The notes beneath the pieces were generated by a model, which was given only the letters and a program-made list of their open reading frames with translations, made no database searches and was not told the origin of the DNA. DNA of 64,000 bases, taken from contig CAJHZI010000258.1 of the NCBI GenBank assembly GCA_905160935.1, positions 680,501 through 744,500 on the forward strand. The letters run 5' to 3'. A program made the position numbers and the translations under genes. Below are positions 34,001 to 37,000 of the stretch, one piece after another (the first letter of the stretch is position 1; each line of letters begins with the position of its first letter). The stretch comes from Enchytraeus crypticus (lineage: Eukaryota; Annelida; Clitellata; Enchytraeida; Enchytraeidae).

Positions 34001-37000
34001 CATGAGTAGCGTTAAACTGCCTGAGATAGAAGGAAGAATTCGATGTATTCAGGGCAACATGCTGCGGTTCAATCCCTAACGACGCTGAGCTGTACGGCAT
34101 GCGGCAAGTGACCAAAAGACCAAGCGATGAAGATGCACTAACACTGTTGTGAATCATTGACGAAGTGTGACTTGTCGATGTAGTTGTGAACGTTGAATTA
34201 TCTGGTATTATATCCGGAATGTCCGAGATGTAGTGAGAGCCCGTTACTTCTGATGGATCTAAGCAAGTGTAGCTTAATCCGATTCCGAGATCATCGTAGG
34301 GACTGTCGTGTAGGAAGAGTCCTGGATGGTTGGATCCAGCGGAAGACAACATCGGGGATGGAGAATGATTTGATGCGGAACCGGACTGATGTAGCGACGT
34401 TGAGCTTGGGGCAGTCATATCGTGAACTACAATCAAGTAATGCAGTTAATTTATTGCTCAAACTAAATTCATAATGAGTAAATTTGCTATAATTTGAATA
34501 ACTTCAATGTTTATAGAAACCATGGCCCAGTAACAAGCGAAATTGTTATCTCTTCATGATAACGTTGTTTGCCGAAATTAAGTCTGAGAGTGTGTCATAC
34601 CATGTAGAGATCTATGTTCAGAATTAAGATAAATCATAAATTTCAGAACAAATTAAATATATTAACTTGGTTATGTTATCAAACTTATTCTTTTATGCTG
34701 CTGTGCTTTATTTCATCCCGACCCGAGTTAAACTGGAATTAAAAGGAAGACGAAGCAGATGATGACGATGCTGAGAAGGTGCTGACATATATAAATATGA
34801 TACTTGGTAAGCTTATTATTTAGTCTAATCATCCGCTAAATTCTTCGTCTATCATTTGAAAGACATTACAAAAATTAAATATATAAAAATACTTGCAACT
34901 CGTTTATAATAATAATTCATTTTTAATTCGATATATATGTGTGTGTGTATGTGTGTGTGTGTGTCTTTCTTCATAGTTCTTACATCCTTATTTCTATTCA
35001 TTTGATTGCAAAATATTTCCTTTTTAATTAAAATTTCAAACAGTTAAATTAGCAATTAATTTTATTGCCTTTATCTATTCATTCTGCAGATGCCTTAATT
35101 ATAAAAAAGCATCTTCTTCTAGTGCAATGCCTAAAAGTGGCCATACACGATACGATTTATCTGTACAGATATCTGAACAGATGTATCTGTTGGAGCCCAC
35201 ACACGGTCAACTTTATTGTACAATTTATTGTACAATTTATCTGTACAGATAAATTGTACAATAAATCTGTATCGCCCACACACGGTCAAATTTATCTGTT
35301 CAGATAAATCTGTACAGATATATCTGAATAGATATTTTGGCCACACACGGTCAAATTTATCTACCGATAAAACTGACGCTCGCCCATACACGGTCAAATT
35401 TAACTGTTCAGATATCTGAACAGTTATGCTAATTAGTTGTCAATCATTTCCAATCTGTAGAGCACGTGATTAATGACAGTCAACCAACATCTACAGTCTA
35501 CAGTACGTACGGCGGGATTAGCGCAGTTGGTTTATTTGCGCGTAAATTATCGAAGTTAAGCTACATCGACCTCGGTTAGTACTTTGTGGGTGACCACCTT
35601 GGAAGACCGAGTGTTGACAGCTTAGGAAGGAAAAAATCCCAGGGTGATGAAATGTTATTCTTAGATCCGTGCCGGCTGCAATTGATGCGCCATCAAAAGG
35701 CAATGATTAATAATAAGTTTATAATAACCTTGGAGAGGAAGGAGGAAACGAGCCTTAAACAAGCAGCTGTGCTTCCTGACCCAGTGAGCCGTTATTTATA
35801 ATATTATATATATATATATATATATATATATATATATATATATATATATATATATATACATATATATACATATATATATACATGTTGGTATATACGTATA
35901 TACGACGCCTATATTGGCTACATGAAATATATCTGGATCAATTATTGGACAGGTTTTCTATTTATAAGCAGTAGTAATAGAAATGGATCGAAAACGAAAG
36001 GAGAGTGCATACGTTGTCTTATTAGCTAAATAATATCGGGAAGATCTAACTAATAACACTTAGTAGCATCGTATCTTGATAGTAATTATACATAAATATC
36101 ATTATCATCAAAATTATTATCATCATCACCTTCGTCATTATCATCATCATTATCATCATAATTATTGTAATCATCAACATCATCATCTACATCGTCATAA
36201 TTCTACGGACTAGTAAATTGAGAGATGACTCTTAATTATATATAGACTCTTTTAATGGGCCTTTGTAGGGCCTGCTTATTGATCGTTCATTAAAGAGAGA
36301 GAATATAAAAGCGCGGTAAAATAAGTGAATTATGTAAATAATTGATGTAAATAAATGAATGTGATAAAAAATGCGCTGAATTCTGATATTTTTCTTTGAG
36401 ATATTTATATTTCCGTATACTTTTGTTACAATGATTTTTTATAAACTTTAATTAGCTTAATGAAAGAGTTCAATATGGAAATTTAATTTTGATGCGTATT
36501 TTTTATTATTATTACTTCTGCTTGTCAAAAGTAATGACATTGCATTATTATTATATAGGCCTACTTTTATCTTAAATAACTCAACAACAATAAGTTTAGG
36601 TCGGCAAGCGCGCCAGAAGTCATTGTGGGCGGAGCATGTCGACAAACTTATTGTACAATAAATTTGTTGATCGTCCACACACGATACGATTTAACTGTTC
36701 AGATACTGAACAGTTAAATTGGATGGTTTTCCCGACAGTTTTGAAAACTGACACTCGTCAGTTATATTGTACAATATTTCCCACATACGGTCAGTTATAT
36801 TGTACAATTTATTGTACAATTTATCTGTACAGATAAATCGTATCGTGTGTGGGCAGTCAAGGTCATCAGTTCTCTCGTCAGTTTTCCCGTCAGTTTTGCC
36901 CACACACGATCAAATTTATTGTACAATTTATTGTACAATTTATCTGTACAGATAAATTGTACAATAAATCGTATCGTGTATGGCCACTGTAACGTATATA

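Follow-up and report, generated by a model that had tools for sequence, protein, structure and literature searches.

The window, by which is meant the whole stretch of 64,000 nucleotides that was analysed, contains a segment with inverted ends and dense palindromic sequence close to both of them. The question is whether this segment is a single mobile element and, if so, to which group of DNA transposons it belongs. It is very probably a non-autonomous cut-and-paste DNA transposon of the PIF/Harbinger type that is moved in trans, and its arrays are likely binding sites. The perfect 25-bp ends described in an earlier note on this DNA were confirmed at 35136-35160 (+) and 36964-36988 (-). The extent given there, 35136 to 36988, located the ends correctly, but the full element covers 35135-36989 (1,855 bp), counting a flanking A and a flanking G outside the 25-bp repeats, and has TAA on both sides. 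The arms are composed of 22-base units, called heads, and of short palindromes with a TGWWCA core, called dyads. The features are as follows.

35132-35134, unstranded: left copy of the target-site duplication TAA, an exact match to the right copy
35135-35160, plus strand: left terminal inverted repeat, AAGTGGCCATACACGATACGATTTAT, which matches the right end perfectly over the 25 bp that begin at 35136
35136-35427, plus strand: left arm with five direct heads, all but one followed by TGWWCA palindromes (pattern count, folding)
35195-35216, plus strand: head 2 (GCCCACACACGGTCAACTTTAT)
35223-35266, unstranded: 44-bp perfect palindrome, the same as 36926-36969
35274-35295, plus strand: head 3
35339-35360, plus strand: head 4, with no dyad after it
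35382-35426, plus strand: head 5 with a 26-bp palindrome
35428-36639, unstranded: non-coding core common to other family copies (alignment of copies)
35508-35790, plus strand: 5S-rRNA-headed SINE of subfamily A (5S match at 35523-35622)
35793-35880, unstranded: (TA)n tract within the core
36640-36988, plus strand: right arm with palindromes and heads at 36673 (+), 36779 (+), 36833 (-), 36898 (+) and 36964 (-)
36898-36985, unstranded: terminal 88-bp module of head, 44-bp palindrome and inverted head, which resembles the mini-copies of 70-149 bp
36964-36989, minus strand: right terminal inverted repeat, the minus strand reading CAGTGGCCATACACGATACGATTTAT
36990-36992, unstranded: right copy of the target-site duplication TAA (flank comparison, empty site)

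A 22-base piece of the end, with up to three mismatches, was matched four times in the window, always within the element, and not once in 100 dinucleotide shuffles. Across 35 two-ended copies of the family, the left end has A as its outermost base in 26 copies and C in nine, and the right end has G in 31 and T in four (plus strand); the family ends read CAGTGGCCATACACG or CAGTGGCC. Short terminal inverted repeats are one trait of PIF/Harbinger elements, and the perfect 25-bp ends agree with it.

The 25-bp ends enclose arms of about 290 bp (left) and 350 bp (right). Ten heads were counted. The five of the left arm all lie on the plus strand (starts at 35139, 35195, 35274, 35339 and 35382), and the five of the right arm comprise three on the plus and two on the minus strand. 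Nine of the ten, all except the head at 35339, directly precede a palindrome whose core is TGWWCA. Dyads of the form TTGTACAA/CTGWWCAG occur 21 times inside the arms versus three times across the remaining window, with a spacing of 11-14 bp between adjacent dyads in a cluster. Palindromes of at least 10 bp, some of them nested, number nine per arm, where shuffles average about 0.5 (maximum 4), and both arms fold much more strongly than shuffles (z of -11.2 and -13.0). The dense palindromic sub-terminal arrays claimed earlier are thus real. The two zones of about 300 bases built of palindrome-linked units are also present, but they are not mirror copies of each other; the left arm is a direct head array and the right arm consists of head/inverted-head modules, and the 44-bp palindrome is identical in both.

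The family was searched for in the window's own 524-Mb assembly, with the same patterns read backwards as control. The 25-bp end (up to two mismatches) gave 220 matches, the 21-base head (up to two) 2,026, the inner right-arm head (up to one) 81 and the fifth left head with its palindrome (up to two) 156; the control gave 0 for each pattern. The 220 end matches exclude the outcome that the earlier note had named as contrary to its reading, namely a lack of other genomic copies with the same ends. Many of the matches listed for head 5 with its palindrome end in ...GATCAG (e.g., C7:234272, C104:376232 and C368:843019); therefore, a sister family with a variant arm palindrome probably shares the head, and it may account for part of the 2,026 head matches.

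Four full-length copies align end to end with the window copy at 91-94% identity. Divergence was determined from an alignment of 27 full-length copies of 1.7-2.25 kb, of which 19, including the window copy, belong to subfamily A and eight to subfamily B. The members of subfamily A share the same core and show a median pairwise difference of 3.6%; those of subfamily B differ from the majority sequence by 14-17%. This is a young, dispersed family, and the window copy is one insertion of it. Apart from two mini-copies, the two-ended copies measure 1.1-3.8 kb and carry three to nine heads in the left arm (33 copies). TGWWCA falls inside the 14 bases after the head for 273 of the 325 heads counted across the 35 copies. 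The non-CpG minority fraction in subfamily A, given without a significance test, is 0.011 for heads, 0.017 for spacers, 0.019 for the interior and 0.026 for dyads. The dyads vary no less than the interior, and selection on them is therefore not supported; the lower variation of the heads is consistent with a role for heads. Two copies stand tail to tail at L029:3389-6641, joined by a common GTAAC.

The family was also sought in other collections. The degenerate head was found at three loci of the viral and 17 of the bacterial collection, every one of them with a single head and lacking any dyad up to 400 bases away, and these single, dyad-free loci are therefore regarded as chance matches. Exact-pattern scans of viral_contigs gave 0 matches.

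The flanks were compared in the 35 two-ended copies, which comprise the window copy, 14 copies out of an initial set of 20 regions and 20 later copies picked from end pairs among the first-listed places of the 220 end matches. L040, whose flanks are the same as those of L039, and six loci without two recognised ends (L034, L042, L043, L045, L046 and L047) were dropped before the count. Exact 3-bp duplications flank 29 of the 35 copies: TAA in 13, TTA in 12, ATA in three and TAT in one, so that 25 are TAA or TTA. When left and right flanks were paired at random, the mean was 13.3 and the maximum 23, and none of 10,000 permutations reached 29. If the L029 pair and the nested L072 are excluded, 28 of 32 copies have an exact duplication (permutation mean 11.8, maximum 21; 0 of 20,000 reach 28). 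The six copies without an exact duplication are both members of the L029 pair, L030, L038, L041 and L067; the duplications of the L029 pair may have been overwritten, given the joint flank GTAAC. A 3-bp duplication that is usually TWA is a further trait of PIF/Harbinger elements, and it is the pattern found in this family.

A related empty site was identified at L044:8230-8302, where the joined flanks of the window copy are 84% identical over 75 columns and the junction reads GCC-TAA-CG with a single TAA; the right flank just past this junction is more diverged than the rest and has small gaps. Joined flanks of 13 copies were searched, and only that of the window copy gave a clear empty site. 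The other alignments across a junction, several of which were TA-rich matches to the interiors of family copies, reached 62-68% identity and were set aside. Four diverged repeat copies were also compared as empty sites, with 13.9 bits for the joined flanks versus 6.6 for the right flank alone. In one control, two of 2,000 random left flanks reached the 13.9-bit score; a second control had 43 such flanks among 8,000, of which 39 lay at known copies of that repeat (one overlapping the real left flank) and four elsewhere. The evidence from these four copies is moderate, and the closer L044 site is stronger. Both target-site duplications and an empty site, the marks of insertion pointed to in the earlier note, were thus found.

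A dispersed repeat with a CT-rich end is present in the window at 40107-40389, 43291-43571, 31247-31340 and 45204-45295, together with partial copies, and the transposon is inserted in one diverged copy of this repeat, about 20 bp from the edge.

The different designs of the two arms might suggest two separate insertions, or a host regulatory array, in place of one transposon. The probability of this is negligible. The complete series of left arm, core and right arm is found again elsewhere from one end to the other, the joined flanks match an unoccupied repeat copy, and the duplications flank the pair of ends; these results refute it.

Target-site duplications in other groups have other lengths: 7 bp in Galileo, which differs from the 3 bp seen here, 8 bp in the hAT superfamily and TA only in the Tc1/mariner superfamily. 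An assignment to hAT was rejected, as no direct repeat of 4-10 bp lies within three bases of the ends of the window copy and 29 of 35 copies have a 3-bp duplication. A Tc1/mariner-type origin, with insertion at TA and additional terminal bases, is very improbable. TA does lie within all 29 exact duplications, and the ends start with CAGTG, a start also known from Tc1-type ends. All three bases match in those 29 copies, however, including ATA/ATA and TAT/TAT, so that the duplication extends beyond TA to a third base; the empty site also has a single TAA, although this site by itself cannot tell a TA duplication from a TAA one.

Internally repetitive, strongly folding arms and a range of three to nine left-arm heads outside the mini-copies would be explained by a foldback element of the Mutator or P superfamily in which recombination had enlarged long repetitive inverted repeats, and such arms are borne by Galileo and Tm1 in the portions of the publications consulted (PMC3688188, PMC3169594). 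This origin is quite improbable, since the flanking match in 29 of 35 copies is precisely three bases long, not the 8-10 bp of Tetris and Tm1, as reported in consulted portions; the Mutator-type foldback is accordingly disfavoured by the length of its duplication. The earlier suggestion of a foldback-type or sub-terminal-repeat DNA transposon holds for a transposon with binding-site-like arrays, and it is sharpened by placing the family with PIF/Harbinger and not with foldback elements of the 8-10 bp Mutator type.

The interior of the element is non-coding. The longest stop-free frame of the window element has 101 codons, and the longest among the 35 copies, of 180 codons, passes through arm sequence. 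The family copies examined contain no recognised transposase. The 5S head of the SINE gave an Rfam 5S_rRNA match of 31.4 bits, under the gathering score of 38. The SINE is present in all 19 aligned copies of subfamily A and in none of the eight elements of subfamily B. It also occurs outside the elements at L053:197-470, L041:6672-6848, L035:590-792 and window positions 63814-63999 (L074), and, in opposite orientation, in L045 adjoining a one-ended copy. The possibility that the SINE and the (TA)n tract are private insertions of the window copy was rejected, since other copies show both to be traits of subfamily A. The SINE appears to have been caught inside the transposon and to have spread with subfamily A as a passenger.

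Over the whole window, Rfam at gathering scores gave no match and ARAGORN found no tRNA. Another repeat family is present at 1344-1482, 18613-18741, 20064-20201, 30706-30804 and 58980-59092 and contains words such as GAGCCCAGGATTTGAACC; these words resemble a tRNA B box, and the repeats are likely tRNA-derived SINEs. Fragments of LINE-type reverse transcriptase lie at 10096-10680 and 42791-43240, the second of which is under the Pfam cut-off. Pfam scans of eight window frames gave a single domain resembling that of a host gene, an immunoglobulin I-set exon at 22136-22507 (-).

An autonomous PIF/Harbinger member would carry an IS5-like DDE transposase (DDE_Tnp_4), to which the genome contains 33 matches. 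One of these, on contig C686 (L077), is separated by about 2 kb from one of the family's right arms. The fragment has 164 codons to a stop and scores 61 bits (E 1.3e-16). The stretch shared with the family, arm included, runs for about 1.25 kb inward toward the fragment (1697-2944) in a single orientation, which is that of the fragment; its identity is 89.7% over 1,252 bp with L030 and 90.7% over 658 bp with the window copy. In the L077 arm, at least 25 dodecamer dyads follow one another up to the end of the stretch read.

Other features of this locus would suit a separate superfamily with 3-bp TWA duplications, in which case the Harbinger fragment may simply lie next to the family sequence without belonging to it. 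The stretch read reaches neither element end, an in-frame stop precedes the fragment, 1,001 upstream bases read N, and the roughly 1.04 kb between fragment and shared stretch has no match in the eight copies compared. A genome search with the fragment (E 0.001; four candidates scored) returned only the fragment itself. The motif G(N)5GTT, used for plant PIF/Harbinger elements in the excerpted text of PMC2213677, was absent by eye from the end CAGTGGCCATACACGATACG; it is a criterion for mining plant genomes and not a definition of the superfamily. A separate superfamily is nevertheless unlikely, as the 3-bp TTA/TAA duplication is a PIF/Harbinger trait according to the same excerpted text (PMC2213677) and the shared stretch at L077 leads toward the fragment in one orientation. 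The family is assigned to PIF/Harbinger because of the 3-bp, mostly TWA duplication together with the linked Harbinger-type transposase fragment.

L077 is the probable source of the transposase, not a proved one; the active source may have been lost, be missing from the assembly or be a different Harbinger. No heads were found in seven other DDE_Tnp_4 regions (L049-L053, L075 and L076), which cover eight of the 33 matches; in L049, L051 and L052 the repeat extends past the region read and its ends lie outside the stretch. Frames were listed for four longer copies (L030, L044, L072 and L073) and five one-ended or damaged loci (L042, L043 and L045-L047), and a tblastn search of these nine loci with the L077 fragment matched only L077 itself. 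Pfam recognised no transposase in four longer frames of L042, L043, L046 and L047; the L042 frame is just at the cut-off for Ifi-6-16. A sequence search of the L077 fragment against solved structures gave nothing meaningful. The autonomous copy anticipated in the earlier note was not found intact, but one locus joins a transposase fragment to the same right arm.

Harbinger-type transposase frames of about 410-425 codons are present in many of the 33 DDE_Tnp_4 matches. L049 (C340), L051 (C150) and L052 (C405) are 98.6-99.2% alike over most of 5.6 kb. Contig C405 contains four matches about 22 kb apart, two per strand, which suggests a large recent repeat unit.

The two mini-copies bear on how the arms may work. 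The smaller, L071:121-190, has 70 bp between the outer AGTGG and CCACT (72 bp with the terminal bases), is built of an end, two palindromes and an inverted end, and is flanked by TAA on both sides. The larger, L070:121-269, has 149 bp (151 bp with the terminal bases), three heads and six dyads, and is flanked by TTA. These copies suggest that the head-dyad-head unit may be close to the minimal substrate and that arms may grow and shrink by whole units. Copies of 72 and 151 bp with their own duplications suggest how little DNA suffices for movement, and they make the binding-array idea testable.

We infer that a Harbinger-type DDE transposase, probably with a Myb-like partner, acts in trans on the CAGTGGCCATACACG ends. 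It would excise the element and insert it mostly at TWA, duplicating 3 bp. Most likely, the heads and TGWWCA dyads act as a series of binding sites and contribute to the assembly of the two ends; a dimeric protein would fit the dyads, and repetition of heads and dyads may raise the chance of recognition, as has been proposed for Galileo. A possible, if doubtful, extension is a modular two-letter binding code, in which the 22-base asymmetric head would be bound by one protein and the TGWWCA dyads, about 12-13 bp apart, by a dimeric second protein. The head-dyad-dyad-head unit of about 72 bp would then be a complete mobile substrate, and the long arms would be arrays amplified to compete for scarce Harbinger transposase.

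Six 14-base pieces of the element were sought in the text of papers with 0 matches, and no title or abstract among the open-literature matches listed describes the family, which may be catalogued elsewhere (e.g., in repeat databases). The following comparisons draw on parts of the cited papers. PIF/Harbinger elements are characterized by a 3-bp TTA/TAA duplication, ends of 14-25 or 25-50 bp and a Myb-like partner (PMC2213677, PMC9179366, PMC2836001). The element resembles Tourist-type MITEs such as mPing in its 3-bp TAA/TTA duplication, terminal inverted repeats, lack of a recognised coding sequence and probable mobilisation in trans, whereas it differs from them in its palindromic arms of about 300 bp composed of heads and dyads. 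Sub-terminal repeat arrays are also found in MtPH-A6-4, a PIF/Harbinger family of Medicago, sometimes in both sub-terminal regions, in opposite orientation and with varying copy number (PMC2213677). That family has a 60-bp tandem unit and was mined with a plant TIR motif (PMC2213677), whereas the present one has 22-base heads and short palindromes 11-14 bp apart within clusters.

Galileo, a foldback-like member of the P superfamily, has long, internally repetitive inverted repeats like those described here, and its extra arm sites bind the transposase domain in gel shifts; unlike the present element, it has a P-type THAP transposase (PMC3688188). Tetris and Tm1 likewise have modular arms with variable repeats and non-autonomous forms, and short MITE-like forms of Tm1 exist, but their duplications are 8-10 bp in length and their authors assigned them to Mutator (PMC4079207, PMC3169594). 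On the basis of the published 3-bp duplications of Harbinger and the 8-10 bp duplications of Mutator foldback elements, the family is therefore filed as a new non-autonomous family of the PIF/Harbinger type. The kind is known and the family new; its arms are foldback-like, and the presence of such repetitive arms on an element with Harbinger-type 3-bp duplications supports the idea of their independent origin across superfamilies.
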